From Cyrtodaria siliqua (Eukaryota > Mollusca > Bivalvia > Adapedonta > Hiatellidae), in NCBI GenBank assembly GCA_037043455.1, contig JAWPHD010005112.1:106527-170526 (forward strand): a stretch of 64,000 bases of DNA, read 5' to 3'. Position numbers and translations under genes: made by a program. Below the pieces are notes generated by a model, which saw only the letters and a program-made list of their open reading frames with translations, ran no database searches and was not told the DNA's origin. How positions within the stretch are numbered: position 1 is the stretch's first letter; each line of letters starts with the position of its first letter. Below, one piece after another: positions 9,575 through 57,762 of the stretch.

Positions 9575-10105
9575 AGAACCTTTATTCATTCCGATCTTCG
9601 AAGATCGCTGAGCACGATATATACAGATATCGAAGGTACATACTTTTGTCTTGGATTTCCTTACTCCTTACGGGTGGTTTGACTACTCCAGCCTTTAAAG
9701 GTTGTGAGTATTGTTTAATCCCTCTTAGGATGTATTGCCTGATTTTTAATTTAGGCTGTTAACTGCTACCGGTGATATGCAGGCTTCATTAGCTCTGATC
9801 CCAACCAAATTCAATTTTATTTCGGCCATTGTTTTCTCGTTTAGGGTAAAGCTTTTTGTTATAAATGGGACCATACACCGCTGGCCATGGACTGTTGTGA
9901 GAATACCGCATTGAAGGTTCCCTGGTTTCCGCCGTATGAATAGCGTCTTCGGATAACATACAATTCTGCTCTATTGACATGATAGCAAGAACTTTTCACT
10001 ACCGTTCATGAACAGTCTCAATCAAACCGAGACTGCAATATTTCTTTCTATTTAACGTGTTCGTCGATTTCTTAAGTTCTTCTGTCACACTTTTTGTCAT
10101 ACAAC
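9575..10105 (+). repeat. Hairpin repeat family A, copy 1 (longest)
   Basis: About 530 bp. It matches the copy at 57245-57762 almost end to end: GATCTTCGAAGATCGCTGAG, TTTGACTACTCCAGCC, ATACAGGCTTCAT, GGGACCATACACC, and the ending CATGAACAG + TCTC...GAGACTG + CAATATTTC...CATAC. The AATAAA-region hairpin is intact (CAGTCTC paired with GAGACTG around a CAAAC loop). No ORF is conserved between copies. Confidence 0.8.
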
Positions 10106-12682
10106 GATGGCATGTTGATAAGGAATTACGTTGTGTACTTGAAGTATATAATAAGTGTAAATTGAGTTTTAAATCTGAAGCATACATTGATACCTACCGT
10201 GTAACATTGATATTTTCCGTGTAATCTCAGACAATATTTAACAACATTCAGAATATCAGCACATACCTAGAACTGAAAGATATTGTCAATTACACACTAT
10301 TGATTTTGAAGATGCATACCATTTTATTTTGATGTGCCCTTGTTGCAAAAACAATAAATCCTTTCAAAAGAAACTTTGACCATATAACTTGATAATGATG
10401 ACACCATTATGTATAATTGCCCTAGAGTCAATTAATTACTAACTGTGTTATGTAACATATACCATATTTAAGAAGTAATCTCAAATCAGCTTACAACAAA
10501 TATCAAAGAACCAGGGGAAGTATACGTTACCGGAAAATGCTGGTTTTGATAGAAAACAGATTTAAAATTAGATTAAAATGAAAAATATCTGAAAATAACT
10601 TGTTTCAGTTATTTTGAGAAAAAAACAAAACACCTAAAACTGTAATAACCTAAAGTTATTTCAAAACTAATTTAACCAAGTTACACTCCTAACGGCATTT
10701 TATACGTCGTCATTTTAACCCATAAAGGCACGAGCGTGTCAACCCAAATTAAGCTTCTTTTTCAAACATGAACTCACAATTCAAATGCACGTTATTTCAT
10801 ATTAAGCGCGAAAACATTTATGCTGTTTCCTAGGCTGCCACAAATACGTCAACGGAATCAGAACTCCATGTTATCGAAATCTCTCCCATCTTTGGAGCGC
10901 CGGTACCATTTAAAAACTAAATCACTTGGAACTGTTGGCTTTGTTGAAGTTGTCCAACGTTTGTTTTGTTTTTCCCTAATTTCACACAAAACTTAACTCA
11001 AAACGTAATGTTACCACGGTATTCTGTTAATTAATTTGCTGTCATATTGTTTCGGGAAGCAGTTTAGTTAGTAATGATACTTGTTGTTTGTTAGGTTATT
11101 ATTATACCGTGACGGATATGACATGAACAATTAACGTGCACATTGTACAGTCGGCATAGGTGTGGTAGCATACGAAATGGCATAGATGTTCGCGAGTTTG
11201 ATATGAAAAAATGGGCATTTAAAATTTGAGTATTTTAAGCACAAACGGCTAAATGTGTCCCGCACCTCTCTCTCGTTAATGAGTTATTGTGACGACGTAT
11301 ACAATGCTTTTATATAAACTAATACCAACTGTCCCATAAGGAATACATCGATAAAGTATAGTGTGTGTAAACTATATTGTTAACTATTAAATAATAACGA
11401 TTATATAGCAAAAGTCTTTATCATCTTGTATACCGACATGTAGAGTAGTTGTAAACATTTCAAACCGTTGATATACCCTGCCACTTAACCTATGTTCGTG
11501 AGTGCACGTTAACATTATGATACAAGTGTGAGTGTCGATAACAGCCCGATATTAAGTTTAAGGATGTTTGTGGTTAATAAAATGATGATGTCGAACCCGA
11601 GATACGTTGCATGTATGTTAGTTCTTAATCACGTGCGATTTGTTTTGCATGAATCACATTTAATTTATTGATATAATCGGATCATGATCAAACTATACAT
11701 TAAATCGACAATATTATGGGGTAAACTGTATTAAAATATTGTCTTTTGCGTCGGTATATCAGTCGTGTAATGTAGGCAACTTTGTTATACAGCGACGCGT
11801 TTACGGTGCCGTTAAACACAATTTGCGACCGCTAACGAATAATATGCTGTCACAAAGGTCAACATTTCAATACGGGTTTACCTATTCTAAAGCATTTGAG
11901 TGTTTTTGATAGCTTTTCTCAAAAACGTTTCAAAAATAAAACTAGATGACGTCACGTTATTGACGGTTTAACGAATGACTGGATTTACGATGGCTTATGT
12001 ACTATTTAATAGTTTGTTGTTGTTATTTATTTATTTTTATGAAATTGTTGAACTTCAACAATCGGATTGCAGGATTTGTTTCAAGTGTGTTAGAACTAAG
12101 GTTTATTGAACTGAACGCGTTAGTTTATTTTACCGCATTACGTTGTCCCGCCTTAATTCCATTATTTTTATTTTAATGATTTTATAACGTATGCAAATTA
12201 ATACTCGGACCACGTAATGGTATTTCGGTTACTCGACTTGCAGTACACACTAAACATATGAAAACAATAAAAAATGCAGTTATGTAATGGATATCATTAT
12301 TTTTGTTATTTGGCTAGTCACGTCGATTATTTTTCAATTCTCAGGTACATTAATGGCTAGTAAGAAATAATATTTTTTTCCTGTTTGCATTCATTCTATT
12401 TCTATTTAAGTCTGATCATTTTAGAAACACGTTAAACCAAACAGTATACTTCATATAACATATTAGTAATTGTTAACTATATTGCACAACTTGTGTATAA
12501 AATACACATGTAAAATATTATATGCAAAGTAAGGTAGCAAAATTGAAAGTCTTTAAAAATACCATCTACTAACATGTTTACTAACATATTTAAAGACAAA
12601 CATATTGAATTAAAAACATGTATCATTGATATGGCTTATTACCACGTCAAGACTGTCGTTTGTCCCATTAAATAATATAATT
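10106..12682. other. Non-coding stretch
   Basis: AT-rich DNA with no ORF, RNA gene or clear repeat recognised on either strand. Confidence 0.6.
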
Positions 12683-12775
12683 AAAGTAGCTATCCCGGCC
12701 ACAACAGCTAAATGATACAACATATGTACACTGTTTCTTAACCTACTGACGACGAGGTTTATAAACTACTAGTAC
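12683..12775 (+). repeat. Relict of the sequence forming the 24.5-25.1 kb palindrome arms
   Basis: AAAGTAGCTAT, CAACAGC, CAACATAT and ACTGACGACG in this order match the palindrome arm at 24631-24705 at moderate identity. This shows the arm sequence belongs to a dispersed family. Confidence 0.6.
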
Positions 12776-12889
12776 CTTCGATAGATTATTATACATATTA
12801 ACATGCCATGCATTGACATATGTGTATTGAAATTGCATAAACGATTGAAATAAAATGTTGTATAATTAAAACAATAATTACGAATGGTG

Positions 12890-13115
12890 AATTTCACCAG
12901 AGATAACTCAGAATACCCATATTCGATTTAAATATATACATGTTTAGTACCACAGCTCCTTAATACGGTCTACAAGATCACATGATTGTTCGTTTACTCT
13001 ATGTTATCTATGTTATCTAAATCGCAACATTATGTAATTAGATTTTTTAATGCTCCTTCATTTTAGATACACTGCACATAGATTTCAATATACGCACGAC
13101 TTAAGAGAACAAAAC
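12890..13115 (+). promoter_or_regulatory. Conserved upstream region with GATA-like sites
   Basis: This block upstream of the first coding exon is conserved in the duplicate (about 53345-53635). Both copies keep AGAGATAACTCAG and TGTTATCTAAATCGCAACA; GATAA and its reverse TTATC fit GATA-factor sites. A TTTTAG just before ATACACTGCACATA could be the acceptor of a 5'-UTR intron, since homology between the copies resumes exactly there. Function is inferred from conservation only. Confidence 0.4.
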
Positions 13116-13182
13116 ATGGATCGATATTTTGGAGTTATTCTTTTACTTTCTTTAGCTGGTTCTGTCGCTGGCATTACAATTT
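13116..13182 (+). CDS. Exon 1 (signal peptide) of a small LDLa-transmembrane protein gene
   Basis: ATG at 13116 in the context AAAACATGG opens 22 codons reading MDRYFGVILLLSLAGSVAG followed by ITI. This is a typical eukaryotic signal peptide: short polar start, hydrophobic core, small residues before a likely cut after SVAG or nearby. The exon ends at 13182 in phase 1 at a strong donor (ATTT|GTAAGTAT). The next exon I can join is 30722-30960, which begins in phase 1 after an ATCCACAG acceptor, so the split codon becomes Cys. The intron would be 17,539 bp. A paralogous exon of identical length and phase lies at 53636-53702 and supports this as real coding sequence. No cDNA evidence is available. 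Confidence 0.7.
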
Positions 13183-13544
13183 GTAAGTATAAGTAGTTAT
13201 AATACTGGCTAAACAATATATCATATAGTAGTACGGAGCGCTACCAATGCGTTGTTTTGTTCGAATCAGGTGTATACCATGTCAAAACTGAAATATACCC
13301 ACTATATTTAAAGATTCGAATTTCACTTAATCACAAAGTTAAAAATGCCATCTATTGATGAAGTTATTATAAATGTAACATCGAAACCCTTTTTCACATT
13401 CATATCTAGGTTAATTACGCATTTTAACTGGAAATTACGGATGCGGTGTTCTAGCGATTTTAACGGGTAGAGAGGAGGGGTGGAACGGGTAATGTCTCAC
13501 CACACCAACCCCTACCGTTCAAATGAGAAAAAAAGACCAAACAA

Positions 13545-14440
13545 GAAATATCACTTAAGTGACCAATGCCCCCGATGTGTCCTTTGACCTCTAAGTATGA
13601 CCTTGATTTTATGCACGACACGTCGTTTGGCTGTGGTGAGTACTTGTGCCAAGTTATTTAAAAATCCGTCCAGGCATACAAAAGTTATTGACCGGACACG
13701 ATTTGACTTTTGACCTATAAGTGTGACCTTGACCTTGGGACCACATACCTGGATTTTGTGCGCAACACATCGTCTTGTTGTGGTGAGCACTTGTGCCAAG
13801 TGATTTGAAAATCCGTCCATGAATGCCAGAGTTATTGACCGGACACGATTTGACTTTTGACCTCCAAGTGTGACCTTGACCTTGAAGAACTGGGTCTTGC
13901 GCGCGACACATTGTCTTGTTATGGTGATCACTTGTGCCAAGTAATTTAAAAATCCCTGCAGGGTTGTGACGGTCCGGACACGAAAAAGTCAAGCAGTTAA
14001 TTTATAGTGATTTTGCAAGGAGAGAAGGTAAACAGCCTCATGATATCTTCTTAACTTGTTTTTTTTTAATAAAATAAATTGAAAACACATATTTTCTGCC
14101 ATTACGAGTTTACATACGATTGGATTTTATAATTTTCGTGAGGCTGGGTGGACTTGAAGAACAAATCTCTGGCAGCATGTCATGATTAATGGTTTTTTTC
14201 GTACTTTTTTTTTTTTTTTTGAGGGTCGGCGCCAAAACATAGGGACGGTCGGGTAACCAGAAACACTGGTATTTTTTTTCTGGCCTAATTAAAAATCCAT
14301 GCAGGGGTTTTGAAGGTACAGTCCGGACACGAACTGCAAAATGACGGATGGACGGACGGAATCCGGACAGACAGACGGACGGTGCGATTACTATATGCCC
14401 ACGAAACTTTTCGGAAACTTTTCGGGGGCATACAAAAAAC
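13545..14440 (-). mobile_element. Mollusc satellite-bearing element with about 145-bp tandem units
   Basis: Three diverged units share TTTGACCT, GTGTGACCTTGACCTT, CTTGTGCCAAGTNATTT and GTCCGGTCAATAACT-type sequence on one strand or the other. They are followed by a GGACGGACGG stretch and a terminal hairpin (GAAAAGTTTC arms, CCCGAAAAGTTTCC) at about 14395-14430. The duplicate region near 54040-54060 lacks the whole block, so this is a discrete insertion in copy 1 or a clean deletion in copy 2. Apparent ORFs of 112-134 codons on the minus strand are products of the repeats. Confidence 0.7.
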
Positions 14441-14909
14441 ACACAGCTAAAGTATGCCGGTGGATGAATTGCTACAAATTCATGTAATCTGGAATATTCA
14501 TAATACGTACACAAACATTAACTAACTATTCGTACTCTCCAAATTGCTAAATTACTGCACAACGCCAAACAGGAAAATACACATTCCTTATTAAAACTCC
14601 AGTTACATCGAGATTACAAATATATATTGAAATGATCTCGAACAATCTCACTCTCAGAAGTACAGAACTATTTAACTATTTTTAAGGTAATTGTTATAGG
14701 CGATGGACGTCTTGTATTGCCAGATGAGAAGGAAGAATTACAATGATATTGTTTTAGCGTTAGTTTTTTTTAGCCGAGTGTGACCAAACCCAGTTCGTTT
14801 TTTAGGTGAATTTTGGTACGATAGCGTTGGTTCTTTAATCTACACAATGACACATTTTTAATCATATGTGTTCATAACATTTTATGTCATTTCTCAGGAT
14901 ATGAATATA

Positions 14910-16910
14910 TAGAAAAATGTATCATACATAAGTAGAACCACCGCCATTTCGCAAGCACATTTGACCATTGATCCCAAATTTGACATTGACATTAAAAGTA
15001 CGGATCTGGAAATTGTACTAGACACATCTTCTAATCAATATTAACATTTTGTTTAGAATTTTATGAGAATCATTCAGCTGATTTTAAAGTTAAGTATCGA
15101 ACACAGAAAGTAACGGCCGAGCGGTATCATGATGGAATGACGGAAATGCGAATAATATATATTTCACGAACATATCAAAAGGCTACACACATTTTAGAAT
15201 GCACCAGTCAATTGTACATGTACTAAAAACTGATCCATAACAGACCATTCAAAACGGAAGTATTAGCGACGTGTCCGATCGGAAACGGACATAAAAACAA
15301 TAAACAAATACTGGTAAATCGAATACTGAAATAATTAAACGTACACACATGCATTGATTTATGAAACATATGTTTGCACGCAAGTTCTCGTTTCTGGTAT
15401 TAAAACAAGTTCGTATTCAAAAAGATGCCAATATCATTAAACCACTAGTTTTCGAGACCTTAATTCGCAATCGTGCGATGTGCACGACAGCGATTTAAGG
15501 TCTCAAAAACTAAAGGCCTGACCACAATGTGAACAGATTACAGTCAGATAGCATATATCAGGTAAGATCTAAACATATTTTGCAATGAACTAATGCGAAG
15601 ATTTTCTGGAAGATGGGAACAGTTTGCCTTAAAAAAATCGAACAAACGTTTTACATACCTCGAATATCACTGTGTTTGCAGTTAGGAAGGTGATTTGTAC
15701 AAATTATCAACTCCATAACGGACCGATTTCGCGGTCTTATCAGAAAACCGTACGTCAAACTCTGATTATCCGATGGACCCGTATAACATCCCGGGTGACA
15801 AACACTATCATCAGAAGAGAAATGTCTGTAGATGACATGGTTCCATGATATCAAGGTGGGACAGGTAGCTTATATATAAAGTTTTAATCAAACAGTTATA
15901 GGTGTACTCTTGTGGCTATGTCATCACATTTTGAATGTTAACGTTTGCACATTAACTTTTTGTTTTTTATAATTGCTAAGATACTTTTAAAATATGCAAT
16001 TAAGTTTATAATTAATTTTTGTTTAATACAGAATAACATCACTATTATGCTTAAACATCTGAGTGAACTTACCTCTTTCACGTTACATTATATGTATAAC
16101 ATTTAAGAATCAGTAATTCACAACCTTAAGGATTGTTTTGATAGATGACTGCAAGTATGTACCAACGTTCATGCCTTTGCTTGCATGTATAAGTTCAGAA
16201 AGCCTGACAAGAGGACACACGCATCGAACAGAAAGTGTTAGCATTCCTCAAATGAACTGCAACATCACTATTATTTAAATTGTCTGATATATTGCACAAA
16301 GGGCCTTATATATTCAAAAGGATTCTAGATAAGGGAAATGAGGTCGTTTCTGATCTGCATTTTATAACTTTAAATCATTTTAGGTGAATGCATTATTTTA
16401 ATGCTTATTATCATTAAGACATTTGGATTATGTATCACACATAAACACACGCTTGAATAGATAACATTTCTAACACAAACAAAACACAGAGTCCAATTAA
16501 ATGTTGTTTTAATGCTTTTTAATAGCTATTTATGTCTATTTTAACGATTATTTTGTAGCAGTTTGAATTGCCCCAATCACAAAAATCATAAATGAAGAAT
16601 TCTGTAGAAGAAATTGAAAAGTACTATATGCGTTTGCACGAAGCATGTTTGTGTCAATACTCAAATTAAAACATCGAAGAAGAAGCGTGAGGGTAATACC
16701 TTGACTACTGTACTGACCAGTAACCATGGCAAGTATATGTGTAAGAATCGGTACAGTTGTTACAAAGGCACATTCCTTATACAGGTTGTGATATTTTTCG
16801 CATTTTATTATAGTCATAACCTAAGTTTGGAACGGTTAGTAAGCATCATTCCTATTTTAAGCACACAGAAACAGTGCAAATGTAATGCCAGTTTATTGTC
16901 ATTGACAGGG
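14910..16910. other. About 2-kb segment present only in duplication copy 1
   Basis: Lies between two blocks collinear with copy 2, where only about 40 bp separate them. It contains a 75-bp imperfect hairpin (15448-15515) and otherwise no recognised gene. It is either a composite insertion in copy 1 or a deletion in copy 2. Confidence 0.55.
15448..15515. repeat. Short palindromic MITE-like hairpin
   Basis: TAGTTTTCGAGACCTTAATT on the left pairs with AATTTAAGGTCTC-type sequence on the right (GATTTAAGGTCTCAAAAACT), with a loop around GTGCGATGTGCACGAC. Confidence 0.65.
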
Positions 16911-17461
16911 GTAGTAATGACAAAGACTACCATACAGGGGTACTGCCTTAAACTGTCCCTAATTGATATCAATATGTGTATTTTAAAAGAAAAACTAAAA
17001 CTGAATGAAAATGAATGTTATTTAACGGCTCATCAACACAATATGTGCCACTACGATATGTCCAGAGAGAGGAGAGTGTTACGTAAGAACCGGGAAACTA
17101 CCCTAATCTAAATAAATATATTAACATGGTTATTTTACTTGCTCAAAGGATAGACTCCGATACACGATACCGCATAGTTTACGTCCCCATGAGATGTACG
17201 CGTCTACCTGACTGTGTATTAAGAGGTTACGTGTTTTGCCCAATAACACACCGACGAAACTCAGGAGCACCGGTGAGGCTTCAAACAGTGTTTTCCGGAT
17301 TATCCACTGTGCCACAGGCTGTATACAACCAAGGAGAGTGACTGCGTTGAAATATATACAACTAAAATGTTAAGACTTCTTATTTCAATCCAAATGTTAT
17401 ATTCAAGAAGCTGGTTCACAACAGTTCTTTTCTAGCAAACTTCGAATTACGTTTGTGTATA

Positions 17462-17640
17462 TACGTACTGAAAAGAGGATGCCTTGGAAGCAACAAATAC
17501 AAACAAGTGATACAAGTAGAAGACGCGGTTCATGAACAGTCTCAATAAAATCGAGACTGCAATATTTCGTATGTGTCGTGCTAGACCATTTCCAAAGTTC
17601 CATTATCATACTCTTTTTTATTGAGTCTGTTTACAACGAC
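17462..17640. repeat. Chimeric D/A hairpin repeat
   Basis: The first part (ACTGAAAAGAGG...CAAGTGATACAAGTAGAAGACGCGG) is the minus-strand 3' end of family D. It switches at the hairpin, without a gap, to the plus-strand end of family A (TTCATGAACAGTCTC...GAGACTGCAATATTTCG...CATACTC). The corresponding place in duplication copy 2 (55731-55876) is a normal D element, so the switch took place in copy 1. Confidence 0.7.
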
Positions 17641-20084: not shown

Positions 20085-20640
20085 TACTTACATCTTTATA
20101 TAATCCACCATAACACTATGATCACGATAGATCGGGAAAATGAGATAATAATTATAGGGTCCTAAGGAACGAGCGCAATGGCATCGTAGGTCCACACTGT
20201 ACTGCAAACAAGGACTTGACAATACAATGAAAGAGACAAAAAACAACAGAAAGGGTGGTGAAGACAGGGTTACCGACTTGGAACGGTCAGTAGGCAATGA
20301 GGCCTACTGGTTAGCTTGAATCGATTTTATATGCGCACAATCCTCGCTATTATCCTGTCTTCAAGTCCCAAATAGACAAGGCGGTGTAAACAAAACAACA
20401 TCCCATCAAAAGGAATTCTCTAACAATAAAGTCCACATCCTGAGAAACTAACTAAAGAAACACATACAAAATAATAAACATATCAGGATGTATCCAGAAT
20501 CGTACTGAACAGCCATAGTAGTTGCAGCTAAAGAGAAAACCAATATAGGGTAAGACCAGAAAACCAGAGGGACGAAAGCTCATGCACCCACCTGCCTTAG
20601 TTGGGGTTTCAGTGGGAAGGTGTATTTCAGACGAAAATGA
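20085..20640 (-). mobile_element. 3'-UTR copy of a diverged family C subfamily (B)
   Basis: GGGTTACCGACTTGGAACGG, GGCCTACTGGTTAGCTT, CTCGCTATTATCCTGTCTTC and GACAAGGCGGTGTAAACAAA align block by block with the C-element 3' UTR at 34500-34660. A second copy lies at 44645-45180, interrupted by a family A insertion. Confidence 0.65.
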
Positions 20641-21114: not shown

Positions 21115-21412
21115 ATGGTTTCATAAGTTTGGCTTTATAAACTTTGCTCCTAACTAAATTCTATTTTGTTTATTTCGCCATAGTTTCATCTTTCAGGGCA
21201 AAGCATTTCTCGGGATGGCTCAAATGTTCGTACTATTGACATTTCATATATTGAGGTCCGCTCAACCCGGGGCTAGAGAACATAACAAGCAAATTTCACA
21301 ACTGTTTATGAACAGTCTCTATAAAACCGTGACTGCAATATATTTGTATTTGTACTGTGTTCGGCGATATCCATTTTTTTTTTAAAAAATAATCTTCCAT
21401 ACTCGTTTCGTT
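21115..21412 (+). repeat. Family A copy, 5'-truncated
   Basis: TTTCATAAGTTTGGCTTTAT...CTAACTAAATTCTATTTTG, TCTCGGGATGGCT, CTCAACCCGGGGCTAGAG and GAACAGTCTC...GTGACTGCAATA are in the family order. One stem pair of the AATAAA hairpin is broken (GAG to GTG). Confidence 0.75.
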
Positions 21413-25275: not shown

Positions 25276-25850
25276 ATATATACCGTGTGTTGCAGCTAGC
25301 TTTTTTAAGCTGTGAATTGATACACTTGATTTCTGTGTATCTCGTCATAGCTAGGCGCCCTGTCGTAGTTCATCGGAAGGTTGTCTGTCCTGGTAGTTCA
25401 CAAATGTTTTTCTCTATATATATTTCTGCCATGTGAACGTGAATCTCTTACGAGATCCCAATTTATAAAGTTGCCGTAGTGAGTTGAAATTCTCTCCCTT
25501 TATTATATTTACTGAATTCACAGTATCCCCAAGATCCGGCACCTTTCATTGTCACTGTCTCAATATAGCTGTGTGTGGTTGAACGCTTAAATGTAGCCCA
25601 CTCATATGAGCTATAATTGTATGTATGTATGCGTCTATATGTTAACTGTGCCTCCAGACGAACGTGTTATGATGTAGAGATACAGTTCATCAACGTGTGT
25701 TGCAGCTACCTTTTTTAACGAGTGAATTCATACGCTTGATTTCTGTGTATCTCGTCATAGCTAGGCACCCTGCCGTAGTTCGTCGGAAGGTTGTCTGTCT
25801 TTGGTAGTTCACACATGTTTCTCTCTCTCTCTCTACATATATATATATAT
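25276..25850 (-). repeat. 418-bp satellite, inverted portion (about 1.3 units)
   Basis: TGTGTTGCAGCTA...CTTTTT, CATAGCTAGGC...CCCTG...CGTAGTTCGTCGG and ATCCGGCACCTTTCATTGTC run in the opposite sense to the array at 25855-27300. The unit restarts at about 25695. Confidence 0.85.
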
Positions 25851-25854
25851 ATAT

Positions 25855-27300
25855 AGGGAAAAGTATTTGCGAACAACCAAGGACATACAAGCTTCGGACG
25901 AACTACGGCAGGGCGCCTAGCTATTATGAAAGACAAAGAAATAAAACGTATGCATTCACTTCCTAAAAAGGATAGCTGCATCACACGCTGATAAACTGTA
26001 TCTCTATATCATAACCCACTCGTCTGGAGGCACAATTAACACGCATTCATACATACATACAATTATAGCTATTATGAGTGGGATCGCATTTAAGGATTCA
26101 ACCACAAACACGATATATTTTTAGACAGTGACATTGAAAGGTGCCGGATCACTATGATACTTTGAATTCAGTAAATTTTATAATATTAAAGGGAGATAAT
26201 TGGAACTCACAACGGCAACTTTCGAAATTCGGGATCTAAGAGATTCACGTTCACAAAGCAGAATTATATATAGGGAGAAGTATTTGCGAACAACCAAGTA
26301 CAGACAACCTTCGGACGAACTACGGCAGGGCGCCTAGCTATGATGAAAGACACATAAATCAAACGTGTGCATTCACTTCCTCAAAAGGATAGCTGCAACA
26401 CACGCTGATAAACTGTATCTCTACATCATAACCCACTCGTCTGGAGTCACAATTAACATATACATGCATACATACATACAACTCTATAGCTATTATGAGT
26501 GGGATGACATTAAAGGATTCAAACACACACACGCTATATTTTTAGACAGTGACAATGAAAGGTGCCGAATCACTAGGATACTAAATTCAGTAAATGGTAT
26601 ATATTAAAGGGAGATAGCTGGAACTCAAAACGGCAACTTTCGAAATTCGGGATCTAAGAGATTCACGTTCACAAAGCAGGATTATATATTGGGAGAAGTA
26701 TTTGCGAACAAACAAGTACAGACAACCTTCGGACGAACTACGGCAGTGCGCCTAGCTATGATGAAAAACACATAAATCAAACGTATGCATTCACTTCCTA
26801 AAAGGATAGATGCAACACACGCTGATAAACTGTAAATCTACATCTTAACCCAATCGTCTGGAGTCACAATTAACATATACACGCATCCATACATACAACT
26901 CTATAGCTATTATGAGTGGGATCACATTAAAGAATTCAACCACACACACGCTATATTTTTAGACAGTGATAATGAAAGGTGCCAGATGATCGCTACGATA
27001 CTAAATTCAGTAAATGGTATATATTAAAGGGAGATAACTGGACCTCACAACGGCAACTTTAGAAAGTAGGGATTTAAGAGATTCAAGTTCACAAAGCAGA
27101 ATTGCATATAGGGAGAAGTATGTGCGAACAACCAATGACAGACAACATTCGGACGAACTACAGCAGGGCGCCTAGCTATGATGAAAGGCACAGAAATCAA
27201 ACGTATGCATTCCCTTTCTACAAAGAATAGCTGCAACACACGCTGATAAACTATATCCCTACATCGTAACCCACTCGTCTGGGAGCACAATTAGCGGATA
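25855..27300 (+). repeat. 418-bp satellite array, about 3.5 units
   Basis: Units begin with GGGAGAAGTATTTGCGAACA at 25855, 26272, 26690 and 27110, i.e. periods of 417, 418 and 420 bp. Each unit holds GACGAACTACGGCAGGGCGC, CCACTCGTCTGGAG, ATACATACATACAA, GAAAGGTGCCGGATCAC and TTAAAGGGAGATAA. ORFs of 66-89 codons here are not conserved between units. Confidence 0.9.
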
Positions 27301-27469
27301 CACACGTACATACATACATTCACCAGATCCTAGTGATCTTCACCAGATCCTAGTGATCCGGCACCTTTCATTGTCATTGTCTAAAAATAAAGCGTATGTG
27401 TGGTTGAATCCTTAAATGTGATCCCACTCATAATAGCTATAATTGTTTGTATTTATGCGTAACTCGTAA
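27300..27469 (-). repeat. Partial satellite unit in reverse sense, with 21-bp tandem duplication
   Basis: TTCACCAGATCCTAGTGATC occurs twice at about 27319-27360. It is followed by CCGGCACCTTTCATTGTCA and CCCACTCATAATAGCTATAA in the inverted sense of the array. Confidence 0.8.
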
Positions 27470-31490: not shown

Positions 31491-32360
31491 GGTCCAATTG
31501 AATCCAAAATAATGATAACAAGGGGAAATGAAACATCATAACATACAAAAGGGTTTATTAATTTTAATATATTAGTATATTATCAGCTGATCTAAACAAA
31601 AAAACATCAATATAGCAGTCATATTATATTTTCCAATGCTTTCTTGTTGGCTTCCTTAGTTCTATTTCTCTTTCTGGCTTTCTGTCACTCTGAAAATATT
31701 AAATAATGAATAAATAATAAAAGTCAAAAAGATGTATTAATGACTGGAATTAGCTGGTTCTTTAACATACCTTTGAGGATAGACAGAATATATCCTAATT
31801 CTGCGAATTAATTATAAAAATCTAACAATGTTATTTAACTGACTTGTTTAATATCATATCTGTCATAGTACGCACTAGATCCGTGCCTTAATTCCTCAAA
31901 CATGATGTTTGCTCTTTGGAACCATTTAACATATGTAGAAACCTAGTTAATATGATCAGTAAAACCTATTTAATATGATCAGTCGAGCATAAAGAGGATT
32001 TGTTTTTGTAATACAATAACAGGTACATATAGAAATAAGCATAATGTACTTACCAGCCATTAACCCCATAGTATATGTCTTCTGTTGACACCAGCATCCT
32101 AAGCAGATTTGGTTTCACCATTCAAAATATTTATAATTACAACCAAATCCTTTCCTCATTTCAAAATGATAAAACGTATTTTACTAAATCCTTCAATCAA
32201 TTCACAAAATGAGTTTGTCGCAGTTATTAATGTTTATTCCTTTAAGCCGTTTGACATTAAAATGTCAAAGCATAAATTCAACTTCTATCCCAGTTGAGAA
32301 TGCGTCTGACTAAATTCAAATCCTGTTCTCAAAATCAGGCATTTCCGTTGAAAGGTCATC
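31491..32360. other. Non-coding stretch with weak minus-strand exon-like signals
   Basis: Minus strand shows a few good splice-like sites (for example GGCTG|GTAAGTAC at about 32052) and a 35-codon open frame near 31865-31965. Phases do not join consistently, so no gene is called. Confidence 0.4.
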
Positions 32361-32705
32361 TGGATTCCTAAATTAAATAAAAATCCGTATAAGGCTCGCT
32401 TTATTTCTAATTCTAGTGCCTGCACCACAACAAACATCTCCAAACTTTTAACTTCTTGTCTTACTGCCGTTAAAGATCACGTTAAACTATATTGTGATAA
32501 AACTTATGAAAACTCTGGGATTAATTTATTTTGGTATATAAAAAATTCAGGAGACGTTCTTGATAACATTTTCAAAAAAGGTCAAGTTTCATCAATAAGT
32601 ACTTATGACTTCTCTACACTATATACAACCTTACCACATCATCTTATTAAAGACAAGCTAATCTCTCTTATTCTCTCGGCAGGTGTTTTACGTTTTCTAA
32701 GCTAG
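32361..32705 (+). pseudogene. N-terminal RT fragment of family C (motif A region)
   Basis: A clean 114-codon frame without ATG runs from TGG at 32361 to TAG at 32703-32705. It reads WIPKLNKNPYKARFISNSSA, LLTSCLTAVKDHVKLYC, GINLFWYIKNSGDVLD and STYDFSTLYTTLPHHLIKDK. The F-S-T-L-Y-T-T-L-P-H block with its Asp is RT motif A of the same element type whose motif C (YLDD) is seen at 7406-7675. No other family C copy in the window covers this part. It is a fragment: no 5' end, and frame lost after 32705. Confidence 0.8.
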
Positions 32706-35539: not shown

Positions 35540-35640
35540 ATGTCAAATTACTCAATAAAAGCGAGTCTGTTAATTTTATCTCTTGTTTGTTTTTGTTGCC
35601 TTATACTTATTTCCAAGGGATCCCTTTTTCATTATTGATT
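35540..35640 (+). repeat. Family D fragment (3' half)
   Basis: ACTCAATAAAAGCGAGTCTG, TTATCTCTTGTTTG and CCAAGGGATCCCTTTTTCAT match the D 3' half. The 5' stem arm is eroded. Confidence 0.7.
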
Positions 35641-35714
35641 GACATTCACACTAGCTTTTGTTTAGTGTTGTGTGGCGGCCGTAAAATGTTGCCCCTATTG
35701 CAAATCAGTAGTGT

Positions 35715-35805
35715 TATTACTTACTGAAACTTCGGGGTCATCAAGCCCAATCTTTTGGCTTGAAGTAGAATATCGTTTAAGCCGGTGTTAGAAAGGAATT
35801 AGTTT
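35715..35805 (+). repeat. Family D fragment (5' half)
   Basis: GGGGTCATCAAGCCCAA, TTTTGGCTTGAAGTAGAAT and CGTTTAAGCCGGTGTTAG match the start of D at 50042-50105. A CAAGCC/GGCTTG stem is kept. Confidence 0.7.
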
Positions 35806-37744: not shown

Positions 37745-38140
37745 TAAAATGACGTCTTGCTATAAAGTAGAATATCGCTTTAACCGGTGCTTGGTGGCGT
37801 GAGAGATATGGCAGTAGACATTATCTCTAATGAACAGACTCAATAATAATAATAATAATAATAGTAGCAGTCTTTATTTACAGAGGGCAACACATTTAAT
37901 TATAAACTAATCTTCCATGAGGCCCTCTATTGTATACAAATTTGCAAATGACAATTGACAGAACAAATAAAATAAAGCAGTAATCAATAAAGGCAAAATT
38001 GTTTTTAAAAACTAAACCTTCAAACTTTGCAAACACGTTAACTCACATACACTCATTTACCGTAATAAAGCGCAGTCTGCTACTTTTATCTCTTGTTTGT
38101 GTTTGTTGCTTCCAATGGATCCCTTTTATGTATTATTAAT
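37745..38140 (+). repeat. Family D copy with an insertion in the hairpin loop
   Basis: Left half 37745-37842 (AAGTAGAATATCGC, GCGTGAGAGATA and TATCTCTAATGAACAGACTC) and right half 38062-38140 (AATAAAGCGCAGTCTGC, TTATCTCTTGTTTGTG) flank about 200 bp of foreign sequence that begins with AAT repeats. The first hairpin of the family has the arms AGAGATA/TATCTCT here. Confidence 0.75.
37842..37866 (+). repeat. AAT microsatellite
   Basis: Seven AAT units at the junction of the insertion in the D element. Confidence 0.9.
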
Positions 38141-43342: not shown

Positions 43343-43802
43343 CCACATGTGTTCTATTGTCTTTATCAAAATATCCCGATGTATTTTGTTTGTTTCGTCA
43401 TTTCTTAAGAAAGAAGTAGTCATTGGTTTATGTTGGGTTTATTCATTGCAATGTACATTCTATCCTACTTATGTGAATATATGGATATTATATACAGGAT
43501 AGGTAGTGGACAATTTCACAAGGTTCACTTAATGTAGAATTTTCATATAAATGCACAGATTATGCTTCTTAGTATGACGTACACGATTTGTTTACTGGCC
43601 GTGGCATTTATAATCGAGTATATGACTATCTGAGGAGACGACCTGAGAACAGAAGAAGGAGGCAGTGCGGGTACAGATATTTGCATTGTATCTGATGAAT
43701 TTTCCCCATTTAAATTGATAGTATTTCAGTTGTTATTAAAATGTGTTAAATTACCGCAAACAGTGTTTTTTGGTCAAACGTGCATTGTCTTTTAATGTAA
43801 AA
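43343..43802. other. Non-coding stretch
   Basis: No recognised feature. Confidence 0.5.
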
Positions 43803-44131
43803 AAGAGTATGATAATGGACCTTTGGAAACGGCCGAGCACGACACATACGAAATATTGCAGTCTCGGTTTGATTGAGCAGTAGTGAAATATGCTAGCTAC
43901 CGCTCACGCCCTCTAGCCCCGGGTTGAGCAGAACTCAATATTAATAAAATCAACAGTACAAAATTTAAACCATCCCGAAGATGGCATGCATATGGTGGTG
44001 GACATGGACTATCTTTCTTCCTCATGTCGTACGGCAGTATCTAATAAAAGTAAATGCCCCGATGCGAAATAAACATAATGGAATTTAGTTGGGAGCAGCG
44101 GTTATGAAGCCTGCCTATCACAAGTAACAGT
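43803..44131 (-). repeat. Family A copy, minus strand
   Basis: Contains GAGTATGATAATGGACC, CGGCCGAGCACGACACATAC, ATTGCAGTCTCGG, CCCCGGGTTGAGCAGAACTC and CATCCCGAAGATGGCATGCA. The first hairpin is GAGCGGTAG/CTACTGCTC here, a compensated variant of GAACGGTAG/CTACCGTTC. The 5' arm of the second hairpin is deleted. Confidence 0.8.
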
Positions 44132-44644
44132 CAAAATATTCAGTCTTTAGTACTGTAGCAATGTATTACAATTTATTAATACGTTAACAGTCGACCTGCT
44201 CAAATTACTAGATTGTCTCATTTAATCGTGGCAAATCGTTCAGCTATCAAGCCTTATAGTGGTCTCAAACACAGACTGCTTCCGTTCTGCCTATGCAACT
44301 TTTTAAACCAAGAAACATATGTTTCTCTCTTGCCAGTAAATGGTAAGATTTCAAGATTTCAACAATTATTTGACCATTTTGAATATCTACCAGGGCGCTT
44401 AAGTTAAATTAAATATACAGATTTATAGATTACTAAATGATTGCCCATTCCTTGTACAATTTGCGCGATTTGCCGTGTTATCGTTCCAGATAATTCATAA
44501 CGAGTTTCATTTAGTGAGCTTAAAATCATTAATATCACATGGCATACCAGTCAAATGTCGAAACTATAATACAGATAAAGTAGTATATAAACACTCATGT
44601 CTGACAGACTGCAGAGCCTAAACGACAATTACAGTTGTGTATTG
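44132..44644. other. Non-coding stretch
   Basis: No recognised feature. Confidence 0.5.
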
Positions 44645-45180
44645 ATAATGAAAACAAATATAAATCCCAGCATCCAAACGCAATGGCACCGTAAGTCCGC
44701 ACATCCGCACAAACAAATAACATGATAATTATTAAATATACAAGATAAGAACAACACACAACTTAAATAATGGTGAAGACAGGGTTACCAACTTAGTAGT
44801 AAATATGGCAGTAAATATGGCATGTCCACCTCTATATGGATGCCATCTTCGGGATGGTTAAAATTCTGCACTATTGATTTTATTTATGAATATTGAGTTC
44901 TGCTCAACCCGGGGCTATGGGGCGTGAACGGTAGCAAGCACATTTCACTACCGTTCATGAACAGTCTCTATCAAAATGTGTTCGGCCATTTCCAAAGGTC
45001 CGCTTTCATACTCTTTTAGAACGGTCAGTAGCAATATGGCCTACTTGTTAGCTTAAACCGGTGCTTTGTGAATACCACCTCGCTATTATCCTGACTTCAG
45101 TGTCCAAATTGACAAGACCGTGTACATAAAAGGTCACCCCACCAAGAGGAAATAGCTAACAACAAAGTCCACATCCAGAG
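44645..45180 (-). mobile_element. Family C subfamily (B) 3'-UTR copy interrupted by a family A insertion
   Basis: 44645-44787 ends GGGTTACCAACTTAG. The block resumes at about 45018 with AACGGTCAGTAGCAATATGG and CTCGCTATTATCCTGACTTC, as in the uninterrupted copy at 20085-20640 (ACCGACTTGGAACGGTCAG). The break is filled by a family A sequence. Confidence 0.7.
44788..45017 (+). repeat. Family A element nested in the B copy
   Basis: GATGCCATCTTCGGGATGG, CTCAACCCGGGGCTATGG, hairpin arms TGAACGGTAG/CTACCGTTCA, CATGAACAGTCTC, then the end TTTCCAAAGGTCC...CATACTCTTTTAG. TTAG lies at both junctions and may be a short target duplication. The 3' arm of the second hairpin is deleted. Confidence 0.75.
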
Positions 45181-49905: not shown

Positions 49906-50029
49906 GACAGCGATCAAAGGAAATTTTGATACTGCCACAGCCAAAAGAAAATGATGTTGGCAAAAGCGAATCCCTCACTGCCAAAGAAAAGAGGATATGT
50001 CATTGTATGAATATGTAACTTGCGTTTTT

Positions 50030-50225
50030 TACTGGTCCTTAGGGACCAACGAGCCCAATTTGGGTGGCTTTGAAGTAGAATACCGCTTAAGCCGGTGCTA
50101 GGGGGCGTGAGAAGTGTTGCTTCTTTCATTACTTCTCATGAACAGACTCAATAAAACCGAGTCTGCTGCTTTATTTTCTTAATTGTGTTTGATGCTCTCA
50201 AAGGATCAGCTTTATCAGTGTTTAT
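50030..50225 (+). repeat. Family D copy, best preserved
   Basis: TACTGGTCCTTAGGGACCA (hairpin GGTCC/GGACC), AGCCCAATTTGGGTGG (hairpin CCCAA/TTGGG), AAGTAGAATACCGCTTAAGC, then hairpin TGAGAAGT/ACTTCTCA, CATGAA, hairpin CAGACTC/GAGTCTG with AATAAAACC in the loop, and the 3' end GGATCAGCTTTATCAGTGTT. Confidence 0.8.
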
Positions 50226-50690
50226 TGCATACAGTACCTTAATATTTAAAACCCAGTCTGGTTTCTTTCCTGGTCACTCAACAGTTTTCCAACTAATTGA
50301 TATGCATTATCAAATATGCAAAGCGATTGACGAAAACAAATTTGCATGTGACTGTTGTATAGTATTTGTTGACATATCAAAAGCTTTCGATCGTTTTCGA
50401 TCGATTTTTAAACTGCGACAACATGGCATCTCAGGCACCCTTATTCATTGAATAAATAATTATATAACTGATCGTAAACAATGAGTTTTCGTCGGTTCTT
50501 CTTTTTCTGAAATAAAAACTCGATATTCCGGCGTACTCCAAGGCTCCGTTCTAGTTGATATAAACGGCTCAGCCGATTCATTGCTTACTACGGCAAGACT
50601 ATTTGATGATGACGGTTCTACTGAGGAGATGACTAATGGCGTGATTGAAATTATTTTAATCACTTTCTGATTCATGTCTGATTATTATTT
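50226..50690 (+). pseudogene. Fragment of a second LINE reverse transcriptase (CR1/Jockey-like)
   Basis: Reads TQSGFFPGHSTVFQLIDMH, then IVFVDISKAFDR (motif A with its Asp), FKLRQHGISGTL, after a stop (TGA at 50480) GVLQGSVL, and then directly ADSLLTTARLFDDDGS. Normally PLLFLIYIND stands between QGSVLG and the DD box, so about 8-10 codons are deleted. The motif C position reads FDDD. It abuts the D element on the left and is unrelated to the RNase H-bearing LINE at 1-3403. Confidence 0.85.
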
Positions 50691-50738
50691 TATGTTACAT
50701 TTACTCTTAAGTTTGTATTTGTATTGTATTCAATGTAT

Positions 50739-51019: not shown

Positions 51020-51032
51020 GTATTCAATGTAT

Positions 51033-51876: not shown

Positions 51877-51879
51877 ATG

Positions 51880-52430: not shown

Positions 52431-52440
52431 AACATGCTAT

Positions 52441-53055: not shown

Positions 53056-53635
53056 AACACACTCAATTTACAATTTAATACAAACAGGTATATAATACAC
53101 CGTCGGAAAATCACAAGGAGTAGACCGAATGTATAAACCAGTTCGCGAACTCTGTGTTATACATCTACATTTTAGGTAAAGTGCTAATTGACTAGACAAA
53201 TCACAGAGCTGACTTGTTTCATCCTTTAATAACACACACAAGCTGAGTTTTTCTATCAACATGTATATTGTTTATTGTATATATATATATCGCCTTACTA
53301 AAATAGAATATTATACATATTAACATATCAATAAAACACTAATTACAAATGGTGAAGATCACCAGAGATAACTCAGAAAATCCATATTAGATTTAAATAT
53401 ACACGTGATTAGTAGCACAACTCCTTAATACGGCCTACACAATCTCATGACTGTTCGTTTACTCTATGTTATCTAAATCGCAACATTATGCAGTTGGATA
53501 GTTGATTGCTCCTTATCAACAGCTCTGATACAATCGCGACTGAATATACAATTATTATAGTAATTACTAAAAACGTTGGATTTTAGATACACTGTACATA
53601 TATTTCAAAACATGCACGACTGAAGGGAGCACAAT

Positions 53636-53702
53636 ATGGATCAATTTATTGGAGTTGTTTTTTTACCTTTTTTAGCTGGCCATGTCACTGGCATTACAAA
53701 TT
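53636..53702 (+). CDS. Exon 1 of a second, paralogous LDLa-TM-like gene
   Basis: ATG at 53636 (ACAATATGG) opens 22 codons reading MDQFIGVVFLPFLAGHVTG then ITN, ending at 53702 in phase 1 at the donor AATT|GTAAGTAT. Length, phase and the frame MD-F-GV--L--LAG-V-GIT match exon 1 at 13116-13182, and the open frame has survived amino acid change (Pro in the hydrophobic core, Ala to Thr near the cleavage site). The Pro in the core could weaken the signal peptide. I see no LDLa exon between here and 64000. With a 17.5-kb intron in the first copy, the partner exon would lie outside the window; or this is a 5' remnant only. Confidence 0.6.
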
Positions 53703-54789
53703 GTAAGTATAGTTAGATATAATACTGGTTCAACAATACTTTAAATAGTAGTACGAAGCGCTACCAATGTGTTTTTGTGTTCGTATCATATGTACAACAT
53801 TTCAAAACTGAAATATACCCACTATATTTAAAAGGTTCAAATGTCACGTTATTAAAACGTTAAAAAAGTCATATACTGATGAAGTCATTATACATGTAAC
53901 ATCTGATAGAACCATTTTCACATTCATACTATGTTAATTACGCATTTAACTAGAAACTATGCATGTGGAGTAGTAGCGACTTTAAGGATAGAGTGGAGGT
54001 GGTATCAAGGGTTCGGACTCACCACGACGACCCTACCGTTCAAAAGAGATTTAAACAAAAAGAAAGAAAACAAAAGTTGATGTCAAGTATCCTGTCGGTG
54101 GATGCATTGCTACAGATTCATATGATAACTTATCGACGAATCTGGAATAATCATAATGCGTACACAAACAGTAACTGTGTATATATGTTGATATCATCAC
54201 TGCCATACACACATTCATTTGATTCACGGACCGTTATCCGTCAATTTATTTCAAACAAGTTGATTCTAATTCTATTTTCTTACACCCCAACTAGCTAAAT
54301 TACTAAACAACTCCAACAGGAAAACACACATTCCTCATTAAACCTCCAGTTACATCGAGATTAAAAATATATATTGAATTGATCTCGAAAGATCTCAATC
54401 TCAGATGTACACAACTACTTAACTATTTTTAAAGTAAATGTTATAGCAGATGGACGCCTTGTATTGCCAGATGAGAATCAATGAGAAGGAAGAATTACAA
54501 TGATATTAGTTTAGCTTTAGTCTGTTTCGACGAGTGTGACCAAACCCAGTTCGTTGTTTAGTTGAAGTTTGGTACGATAGCGATGGTTCCTTAATCTACA
54601 CAATGACACATGTTTAATCATATGTGTGCATGACATTTTATGTAATTTCTCTACATACGAGTATATAGCGTTGTAATTGTTAAAATAATGTCGACCGTAC
54701 AGGGGTACTGCCTTAAACTGTCCATAATTGATATCAATATGAGTATTTTAAAGGAAAAATTAAAGCGGAATGAAAGGAATTTTGTTTAA

Positions 54790-55190
54790 TGACTCTTCAG
54801 CACCTTATGTGTTATTATTACCTGATCTCCTATATAAATGCTATATCGTCATTTCTTGCTAATTCACTAAGGAAAAGACTGTTCCCGGTGAAAACGAACT
54901 GTTACCGGGCTTTAGTTTCGACTGTTTCCCTCACGTGCTGGAATTTCGTTTGCGTGACGTCATGTTGCTTTTTTCACCATAGGTTCCCATTATAGAACAA
55001 TTTTTCATTTTCACTGTTTCGTACAATAACATTAATCAGGTAATAAAACAGTTATCACATGTGTGTTTGGGGAACAGTCAAAACGGTTTTCCCTTGGTGT
55101 CGGGGGATGTCAGTGTTCACACTGCCATCCCCTCCACCTCCTGAAAACAGTTTTGACTGTTCCCCAAACACACCTGTGATAACTGTATAC
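54790..55190. repeat. Insertion in duplication copy 2, with a 143-bp palindrome
   Basis: ACAGTTATCACATGTGTGTT...GGGGAACAGTCAAAAC at 55044 mirrors GTTTTGACTGTTCCCC...ACACCTGTGATAACTGT ending 55186, with an inner GGGGATG/CATCCCC stem. Copy 1 lacks it. A related CTGTTCCC/GGGAAACAGTC pair lies just upstream (54875-54930). Confidence 0.75.
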
Positions 55191-55269
55191 TAATACAAGG
55201 CCAGAGAGAAGAGAGTGATACATAGAAACGGGGAACCTACCTTTATCTTAATAAGTATATACTAATATG

Positions 55270-55475
55270 TTTTTTTGAATTTCTCGAAGGATGGGTACCA
55301 CCCAGTTTACGTCACCAATGAGAGTGAGGAAGTGTCGATTCTTACGGATGGCGAGAGGTGTACAGTACTGGTTCTACCCAGGAAAAGTGAATGGTCTGCC
55401 TCCACCACAAAAAATCGACCGTCATATATAACCTTGCATCTGTTGAAAATGACGTAAAACACCATACAAACAAAC
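55270..55475 (+). mobile_element. SINE fragment (head missing) sharing its 3' end with the LINE at 1-3403
   Basis: GAGTGAGGAAGTGTCGAT, TGTACAGTACTGGTTCTACC, TGCCTCCACCACAAAAAATC and the end ATGACGTAAAACACCAT + ACAAACAAAC match 63245-63425. Copy 1 of the duplication has an empty site here. The last bases ACGTAAAACACCAT resemble the LINE 3' end at 3370-3384. Confidence 0.8.
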
Positions 55476-55730
55476 CATGAGATGTACGCGTAAACCTGTG
55501 TATTAATAGGGAAAGTGTCTTGCCCAGTAACACACCGACGAAACTCAGTGGCGCCGGTGAGACTTCAAGCAGTGTTTCTACAGGCTGTATACACCAAAGG
55601 AGATTGACTGCGTTGACATATATACAACTAAAATGTTAAGACTTCGTTATTTCAGTCAAAATGTTATATCCAAGAAGCTAACAGTCATTCATTTCTAGCA
55701 ACATTGGCTGAATATTAAGTTCATGTATAT

Positions 55731-55871
55731 ATAAATACTGAAAAGGGGGTCCCTTGGAAGCAACAAACACAAGCAAGAGATACAAGTAGCAGACTCGGTT
55801 GTATTGAGTCTGTTCATGAGAGGTAATGTGAAGTGAAACACCGTTCACGCCTCCTAGCACCGGCTTAAGCG

Positions 55872-55876
<5 letters not shown>
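55731..55876 (-). repeat. Family D copy, minus strand
   Basis: AAATACTGAAAAGGGGGTCC, AGCAACAAACACAAGCAAGA, stem arms CAGACTC/GAGTCTG, CATGAGAGGTAATG and AGCACCGGCTTAAGC. It ends in a CT microsatellite where the family would continue. Confidence 0.85.

Positions 55877-55908
<32 letters not shown>
55877..55908 (+). repeat. (CT)16 microsatellite
   Basis: Uninterrupted CT repeats. Confidence 0.95.
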
Positions 55909-56039
55909 CTGGTGTGTATGTGTGCTCGTGCATTACTATCTGACTGAGGACCTCCGTATGAAAACACACCAACCGTCCGAGGACTTCTCAAACGTCCGAG
56001 GACTTTTTACGGGTCCTCGGAAGAAAACTAGTTTTGATT

Positions 56040-56236
56040 AGTTAAAAATCGTTGTAGGTATCACGTGACCAATTTTCGGGTAAGACCTCGTTTGATAGGC
56101 GAAATGAGAAGTGTGTGTAGAGGGTGAACACAGTTTACGCTTTCCGATAAACACACATTATTTCGGACTTCCGGTTTTAGAGAAGAAGTTTGTGTCGAGG
56201 TCATTTCCACTGAGGTGCCATTTCCGACGAGGTAGG
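56040..56236 (+). promoter_or_regulatory. Possible promoter and non-coding first exon
   Basis: ATCACGTGACC (E-box) at 56059 and GACTTCCGGTTTTAG (ETS/GABP-type ACTTCCGG) at 56165 precede a donor-like GACGAG|GTAGGT at 56231. The block is less AT-rich than its surroundings. Which gene it would serve is unknown; the exon candidate at 58493 lies downstream on the same strand. Confidence 0.3.
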
Positions 56237-56254
56237 TTTCCATTAAAAGTCGTT

Positions 56255-56600
56255 TAAACAGTAGTTTTGAATAAATGATAGGATATATAATGCAGTATGT
56301 GTTTTAATAAAACAAGAATTACAGTATAGATCTAGATTGATCATTACATTTTAAATGCCAAGTGAATTGTGGGAGGGGTATTGAATTTAAAATACAGGAA
56401 ATGTTTGAACTCTGAGTTTTAGACAGCAGTTTTGAGTATACGATAGGATATTTGTTTTGAATAAACTAGAATAACAGTATAGATTGATCTTTGAATTCAA
56501 AATGTAAATGCAAAGTAAATTTTAGCTCGAAATTGTGGAAGGAGTATTGAATTTGAAACACAGAAAATGCTTGAACTCTCGGTTCAGAGAGAACTTGGAA
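56255..56600 (+). repeat. Tandem duplication, unit about 180 bp, two copies
   Basis: AGTAGTTTTGAATAAATGATAGGATAT...GAATTGTGGGAGGGGTATTGAATTTAAAATACAGGAAATG appears again from 56430 as CAGCAGTTTTGAGTATACGATAGGATAT...GTATTGAATTTGAAACACAGAAAATG. Confidence 0.8.
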
Positions 56601-57244
56601 GAATTTTGACATTTTCAGTTCAGATGCCGAGATGTTTATGAATTTATATGTGTGGATGAATTACGTGGTGTTTACTTTATTACAAATATATTGACAATTT
56701 CAAGCCAATTTTCAAATTTTGATTGAACACAATGTAAGCCTTCAAACTTGAGTAGCAGAAGAATTTATTTCCTCAAAATTAATGACGATATACTCTGAGT
56801 ACAACTAACGTTATACATATAATAATTTAATAAATAATAATAGTTCGGTAACTAACGCAATTGAACCTGCACTTATCTGCTCAAGGAACCTCATTGGTAG
56901 AGCAATTTAAGGTACCTAAATCCATGGTCGGGAAACAAGAATTGTGACATTTAAGCACAAATGATACTCACGGTTTGCACTGCAAATGACAGCCATTTCT
57001 GATATGAAAAAAATCCGGAAAACATGGAAATGATGTATGAATCGATCTGGAATTACTTCTATCATATAAGCGCATTAAAATGCTGTTTTTAGCGATACAT
57101 TTACTTTCTCTCACGTTTAAATTGTTGAGATCATTCGGGAAGTTTGGTTAAGTTAAGCATTGAAAGAAATCGCGAATGCCAACAATTGGGTAGCAAAAAT
57201 CGTATATTATTGTCGGTTATTTGAATAGTTTAGTTTATTTCATT
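56601..57244. other. Non-coding stretch
   Basis: No recognised feature. Confidence 0.5.
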
Positions 57245-57762
57245 CAGGACTGTTATTCATTCGATCTTTGGAGATCGCTGAGCCCAATACTTATATTTAG
57301 TTATCGGTGGTACATTTTCAATATCATTTGTTTTCTTACTTAATTTTCGATTCGGTTGTTCCACTACTCCGGCCGATAGAAGGCTCTGGGTATTGTTTAA
57401 CCACTCATAGGATATGCTGTCTGCTTTTTACTTGTCTTTTGGCTGTTACTTGTGATATACAGGCTTCATAACCGCTGCTCCCAACTAAATTCCATTTTGT
57501 TTATTTTGCTCTTCGGGGCATAGTATTTTGTTAGATATTGGGACCATACACCACTGTACATGGGGGAGGAAAATCTCTATGTTCACAGCCTATGCATGCC
57601 ATCTTCGGGATGGTTAAAATTATGTACTGATTTTATGAATATTGAGTTCTGCTCAACCCGGGGCTAGAAGGCATAAATCAAACCGAGACTGCAATATTCT
57701 GTATGTGTCGTGTTCGGCCGTTTCCAAAGGTCGATTATCATACATCATACTCTTTTATTATA
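57245..57762 (+). repeat. Family A copy, nearly full length
   Basis: Matches 9575-10105 from GATCTTTGGAGATCGCTGAG through TGATATACAGGCTTCATAAC, GGGACCATACACCACTG, GCCATCTTCGGGATGG, CTCAACCCGGGGCTAG and GAGACTGCAATATTC. The hairpin region is internally deleted (GAAGGCATAAATCAAACCGA), removing the first hairpin and the 5' arm of the second. Confidence 0.8.

Follow-up and report, generated by a model that had tools for sequence, protein, structure and literature searches.

Short interspersed nuclear elements (SINEs) and long interspersed nuclear elements (LINEs) form pairs that can share a 3′ tail with a stem-loop. The bivalve mobile element biv-TRIM, described from eleven bivalve species, has terminal direct repeats (TDRs) of 202-218 bp and an inner domain of 77-80 bp, and occurs in tandem arrays and as solo TDRs, with 27,489 loci in Ruditapes philippinarum (Satovic et al. 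2019, PMC6934838; what is said of this paper here and below refers to excerpts of it). Its authors, who count it among the few TRIM elements described in animals, noted short tRNA similarities in the inner domain; they did not unambiguously identify a primer-binding site and found no partner element. Animal non-long-terminal-repeat (non-LTR) retrozymes, which are also found in molluscs, are small non-coding units of ~150-450 bp, often in tandem (PMC7229834, likewise in excerpt). Herein, we describe two repeat families, A and D, in a 64,000-nt stretch of the genome of the bivalve Cyrtodaria siliqua (contig JAWPHD010005112.1, positions 106,527-170,526; hereafter the window). The two families have in common a module with two adjacent stem-loops. 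The first of these has kept its base pairing across D-like subfamilies by compensatory changes, and the module may be a 3′-end RNA signal for reverse transcription in trans.

Two families and their common module

Six loci of each family were counted, and all counts of A and D copies below refer to the window. On the evidence of its sequence, family D is biv-TRIM. The published TDR R primer matched the D copy at 50029-50230(+) (D50) at 20/20 bases (50083-50102, minus strand) and the copy at 55721-55878(-) (D55) with 1 mismatch (55853-55872). The TDR F primer had its sole match, 17/20 bases at 35666-35685(-), in the copy at 35545-35794(+) (D35). None of these matches was expected from shuffles (0 in each case), and the two primers, as printed, read on the same D strand. 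The inner-domain segment TGATCCCAAAGGAC was found at its expected place in the longest D copy, at 4257-4511(-) (D4; 4422-4435, 13/14 bases), and in D50 (50035-50048, two mismatches); at 3 mismatches this segment is not rare (6 found vs 3.8 expected). Family D also resembles the published element in its approximate unit length, its tandem forms and the insertions inside its TDR. No complete copy with two TDRs around an inner domain was found among the 6 D loci of the window, one of which has a tail-head junction. The original prediction that no named element has this arrangement was therefore wrong for D, given the primer matches; for family A, literature searches yielded no name.

Family A appears from its sequence to be a second, longer non-coding family, which ends in a module of ~135 nt also found in D. 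A protein search with its translation gave no relative, and it showed no terminal repeat. Alignment of the two families placed two adjacent stem-loops within the module, and both were located in A as well as in D, as had been predicted. Profiles of A and D retrieved each other's copies (E 6e-16 and 3e-9), and thus the module is homologous in the two families; upstream of it, BLAST gave no match between A and D. Both hairpins lie within what the excerpts describe as the biv-TRIM TDR. The 26-nt core of hairpin 2 was found at 6 places at up to 3 mismatches, and in none of 100 dinucleotide shuffles.

The arms predicted for hairpin 2 were confirmed to the letter. The A type, CAGTCTC/GAGACTG, is present at 10013-10035 in the longest A copy (A10, 9567-10095(+)) and within 17534-17559 in a truncated one (A17, 17528-17617(+)), while the D type, CAGACTC/GAGTCTG, is present at 50143-50165 in D50, with the loop AATAAAACC, and within 55790-55815(-) in D55. 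The loop contains AATAAA in D50 and D4. Hairpin 1 is paired at 10/10 positions in the A copy at 44796-45017(+) (A44; hairpin at 44923-44959) and in D50 (50106-50140, arms CGTGAGAAGT and ACTTCTCATG); it has one mismatch in the D copy at 37.8k and two mismatches each in D55 and D4. Thus, of the hairpin-1 copies cited in the original prediction, those at 44930 and 50100 stood as fully paired and that at 37805 with its mismatch. The copy at 43890 is not clean covariation, because its GAGC/GCTC pair borrows the CTC of hairpin 2; a 12-nt deletion has fused its two hairpins (A copy at 43801-44136(-)), and it was rejected as evidence. Nor does every cited copy carry the pair, since those at 44.9k and 37.8k have lost hairpin 2. 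Two further hairpins proposed for D, GGTCC/GGACC and CCCAA/TTGGG, hold for D50 and, read by eye, are perfect nowhere else.

Within the window, the arms of hairpin 1 paired slightly better with their own partners than with swapped ones (9.0/10 vs 8.3/10, 5 copies), and so did those of hairpin 2 (6.5/7 vs 5.9/7, 6 copies). A10 and the degenerate A copy at 21131-21373(+), in both of which the 5′ arm of hairpin 1 is partly deleted, were excluded from the hairpin-1 count. Pair 2 of hairpin 1 is G.T in 5/5 copies compared; A10 has A-T there, in a hairpin with a deleted arm. The covariation that can be read from the window copies by themselves is weak.

Compensatory changes in hairpin 1

The D copy at 55.8k is stop-free by chance, and its translation served as a query against ORF (open reading frame) translations from the European Nucleotide Archive (ENA). 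The single-sequence search (E up to 0.01) gave a sole match, P0001, while an alignment/profile search returned 245 D-like proteins at E up to 1; all counts of translations rest on the 120 of these 245 matches that were listed. The spread of biv-TRIM across bivalves rests on PMC6934838 and not on these matches. A segment with both arm regions was cut from 112/120 proteins, giving 118 segments (8/120 yielded none). Eleven of the 118 were left out for register, and the 107 kept, with arms read at one fixed spacing, collapsed to 87 distinct 14-mers. The second codon bases of two residue pairs served as a readout of base pairs 6 and 9 of hairpin 1. Serine has two possible bases at the second codon position, and the permissive count accepted either.

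Pair 6 was standard in 77/87 distinct 14-mers (shuffle mean 68%) and pair 9 in 79/87 (shuffle mean 60%), values that 0/1000 shuffles reached for either pair. With serine removed, the fractions were 37/41 and 51/56. Two cross-paired controls gave 45/87 and 36/87, both under their own shuffle means, and for each of eight other control pairs the observed value was reached by at least 130/1000 shuffles. The unambiguous types at pair 6 were G-C (Arg/Ser; Arg/Pro), C-G (Ala/Gly) and A-T (Asp/Val); pair 9 occurred as G-C (Gly/Thr), A-T (Asp/Ile) and C-G (Thr/Cys once; Thr/Ser if serine is AGY). Parsimony, on a tree built from the few remaining alignment columns and with serine given its pairing reading in pairs and controls alike, counted 8 double changes to a standard pair at pair 6 and 8 at pair 9, while the controls had 3 and 2. 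In hairpin 2, two translations with a D-type body (P0055, P0099) carry the A-type switch (the T-A form; Thr to Ser with Val to Asp). In conclusion, the pairing of hairpin 1 has been kept across subfamilies by compensatory changes. The covariation claim is strong because of ORF translations from other ENA assemblies rather than because of the window copies, and the pairing counts in 87 sequences, together with parsimony, support the prediction that the structure itself is selected far beyond what the window alone could.

Among the translations, P0003 consists of four tandem 25-residue units, each comprising only hairpin 2 and part of the tail. P0100, P0104 and P0115 form a D-like subfamily with its own upstream sequence (MAPKS..LDLI..NQY), possibly a third body on the module. 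In P0014 and P0020, a shared unrelated sequence directly follows the 3′ edge of two D-like copies.

Copy edges and the mode of mobilisation

Copy edges were taken from local alignments and by eye. Family D has a 3′ edge common to four independent loci (4.3k, 38.1k, 50.2k and 55.7k, plus a duplicate at 17.5k), and its 5′ edges differ. Four of the 6 A copies end at CATACTCTTTT, and 5 distinct 5′ edges were found among the 6. The recurrent 3′ edge falls just past the tail of the module, and in D it lies inside the TDR, not at the TDR ends. In the translations, the tail was recognised in 50/120 proteins (first match per protein) by a pattern written after the sequences had been viewed. Of these 50, 27 exit into other sequence at the edge, 6 pass into a next unit and 17 stop within 4 residues of it. 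Most copies thus combine, as SINEs do, a fixed 3′ edge with a variable 5′ edge; exceptions are D35, P0002 and one subfamily of translations marked by IQKF. Edges of the LTR type with a target duplication of 4-6 bp were not found: those of D lie inside the TDR, D gave no empty site, and the target duplication of A44 is at most 3 nt.

Common 3′ edges combined with graded 5′ edges point to reverse transcription that starts at the 3′ end, and a shared enzyme is suggested by the fact that A and D, whose bodies are unrelated, have only their 3′ end in common. On the basis of these 3′-anchored, 5′-truncated copies, we favour an RNA intermediate for both A and D. Our preferred explanation, to which we give a probability of about one half, is that the module is a 3′-end RNA signal for reverse transcription in trans, with D being biv-TRIM and A a second family that carries it. 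In this view, a LINE- or Penelope-type reverse transcriptase acting in trans would recognise the module as the 3′ domain of an RNA, and the hairpin pair would be the recognition domain of this shared enzyme, which would copy from the 3′ end and often stop early. Unrelated 5′ bodies would carry one module since they use one enzyme, as SINEs share LINE tails. The tandem biv-TRIM arrays and the form with two TDRs around an inner domain would represent partial tandem multimers and not an LTR element. With SINE/LINE pairs, A and D share unrelated 5′ bodies, a common structured 3′ module, a fixed 3′ edge and 5′ truncation; they differ from such pairs in that no partner LINE was found for them and no tRNA is present in the window, and in the short target duplication of A44 and the CTCTTTT end of A.

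Several observations weigh against this explanation. Some concern the pairing: subfamilies are large and related, so that sequence counts exceed counts of independent events; non-pairing exceptions occur (e.g., Lys/Ser five times at pair 6); and single changes to a non-pair numbered 9 and 8 in the parsimony count (18 and 15 in controls), that is, pairing was not always kept. The excess of wobble pairs on this strand is modest (9 G.T/T.G vs 4 A.C/C.A unambiguous cells), which leaves room for pairing at the level of DNA. Others concern the edges: D35 is without the common 3′ edge; P0002, one of the 27 translations above, runs straight into another module; and nine of the 17 edge-ending ORFs have IQKF next, a subfamily in which common sequence continues. 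The 3′ end of A is CTCTTTT, not poly(A). In A44, the sole case in which it could be measured, comparison with an empty site (a flank paralogue without the insert at 20174-20483(+), junction 20278/20279) limits the target duplication to at most 3 nt, which is odd for most LINE-mobilised SINEs. As for the machinery, no autonomous partner with the module and no LINE with the module as its 3′ tail was seen in the window, and the biv-TRIM authors report no partner in the excerpts of PMC6934838, where complete copies with two TDRs around an inner domain and a polypurine tract are reported. RNA polymerase III boxes (up to 2 mismatches) are inconsistent: a weak A box and B box occur together only in A10 (2 mismatches), the pair is absent in D4, D35 and A57 (57238-57743(+)), and D50 has one weak A box.

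An unlikely alternative, though the one that fares best, is that biv-TRIM is a miniature LTR retrotransposon as published and that the hairpins act within the LTR in transcription, polyadenylation or strand transfer. The AATAAA in the hairpin-2 loop of D50 and D4 would suit such a role, as the lentiviral LTR combines TAR with a poly(A) hairpin whose loop has AATAAA. The published TDR and inner-domain lengths, the solo TDRs and the arrays suit it as well (PMC6934838). However, in that paper the primer-binding site is not clear and no partner element is found, the wording 'target site' is absent from its main text, and the AATAAA is opposite to the published orientation, judged by the printed primers and the motif. 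The copies themselves argue in the same direction: their recurrent edges fall inside the TDR rather than at its ends, and A has the module and showed no terminal repeat.

The hairpins might instead act as DNA, in the form of a single-strand hairpin or a cruciform, perhaps serving as a rolling-circle or recombinase signal; we consider this improbable. Breaks at hairpin 2 occur in several copies (17530, 37846, 44975 and 57676), and the short target duplication of A44 and the modest wobble excess agree with such a role. However, a common 3′ edge with graded 5′ truncation suits reverse transcription better, the G.T at pair 2 in 5/5 copies would be C.A on the opposite strand, and endonucleases could plausibly also nick the T-run opposite the loop, which would explain the insertions in the loop.

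Quite improbable, too, is a self-processing RNA in the style of animal retrozymes: tandem units would give transcripts that are cut to monomers, circularise and are then reverse transcribed. The size of the units and their tandem arrays are like those of animal retrozymes (150-450 bp repeats, PMC7229834, in excerpt), tandem or joined units were seen by eye in P0002, P0003, P0008, P0041, P0054, P0073, P0076 and P0088, and D35 has its tail-head junction. However, A and D differ from retrozymes in lacking a detected hammerhead ribozyme. The original prediction had suggested comparing the core with ribozyme models, and Rfam gave no ribozyme family, hammerhead included, at the gathering threshold in the window, nor anything relevant at E up to 5 in the two copies so searched, D50 and A57. 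That the conserved stretch is a short protein, read in the HEQTQ frame, is almost certainly wrong: the frame was found again in 112/120 listed ORFs with the upstream arm, but second-position changes track base pairing rather than the chemistry of the residues (Gly to Asp with Thr to Ile; Ala/Gly vs Arg/Ser), and the AATAAA loop puts a stop in frame in D50 and D4.

Pattern scans of viral and prokaryotic genome contigs gave nothing, or matches regarded as fortuitous. L001 and L002 were rejected as relatives, the rest of the module being absent, and L003-L006 were attributed to chance (4 found vs ~7 expected, an estimate from pattern length and collection size).

Other features of the window, and significance

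The remaining details of the copies concern their breaks and neighbours. A10 and A57 have a common 5′ edge, and an internal deletion in A57 has cost it hairpin 1 together with the 5′ arm of hairpin 2; A44 has lost the 3′ half of hairpin 2 to a deletion that starts in the loop. A17, reduced to hairpin 2 and the tail, sits in the hairpin-2 loop of another D copy (D17), whose tail half is at 17455-17530(-). D17 is the paralogue of D55 in a segmental duplication (12861-17530 vs 53326-55800, collinear blocks at ~78-90% identity). In D4, which has the head, the inner-domain motif and the tail, both hairpins are degenerate; in D35 the tail precedes the head, as in a tandem junction or a permuted monomer. 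The D copy at 37.8k is broken in the hairpin-2 loop, with its 5′ part and hairpin 1 at 37755-37846(+) and its tail at 38058-38139(+). The ~218 nt between them (37846-38064) start with (ATA)n, are possibly flanked by an AATA target duplication and resemble the reversed 3′ end of a LINE or SINE. A LINE reverse transcriptase fragment (50247-50451; RVT_1, E 3e-4, below the curated cut-off) abuts the 3′ edge of D50.

Elsewhere in the window, positions 489-3162 hold a broken LINE whose domains include reverse transcriptase and RNase H. Three ORFs (7406-7750, 32352-32705 and 34881-35399) had no Pfam match; they resemble pieces of Penelope-type reverse transcriptases. The sole Rfam match in the window at the gathering threshold, SECIS_1 at 34846-34906, overlaps the third of these ORFs and may be due to chance. 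Four copies of a ~417-bp unit, three of them 69-89% like the reference copy, occupy 25766-27318, where Tandem Repeats Finder reported none.

Family D is known already, as biv-TRIM; the hairpin pair, its covariation and family A were not met with in literature searches, which covered published text in part, and the letters of the hairpins themselves gave no relevant match. The excerpts of PMC6934838 describe hairpins in the inner domain only, and the TDR hairpin pair, the covariation, the A module and the 3′-anchored edges are absent from them.

Judged by its hairpins and copy ends, biv-TRIM may sit in the wrong class. A broader proposal, which we hold only tentatively, is that elements with the hairpin pair form an undescribed superfamily of animal retroelements. 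It would comprise at least A and biv-TRIM, two families whose 5′ bodies are unrelated, and would be unified by a structured 3′ domain in the RNA, with mobilisation by a reverse transcriptase and arrays formed via multimeric or circular RNA; biv-TRIM would then have been misfiled as an LTR element. Hairpin 1 is a case in which base pairing was shown from translated ORFs alone. As a structural probe, the hairpin pair should reveal related families that sequence searches have missed. For biv-TRIM, an RNA domain that covaries and lies at a fixed 3′ edge provides a testable alternative, in which the question becomes which reverse transcriptase binds it.

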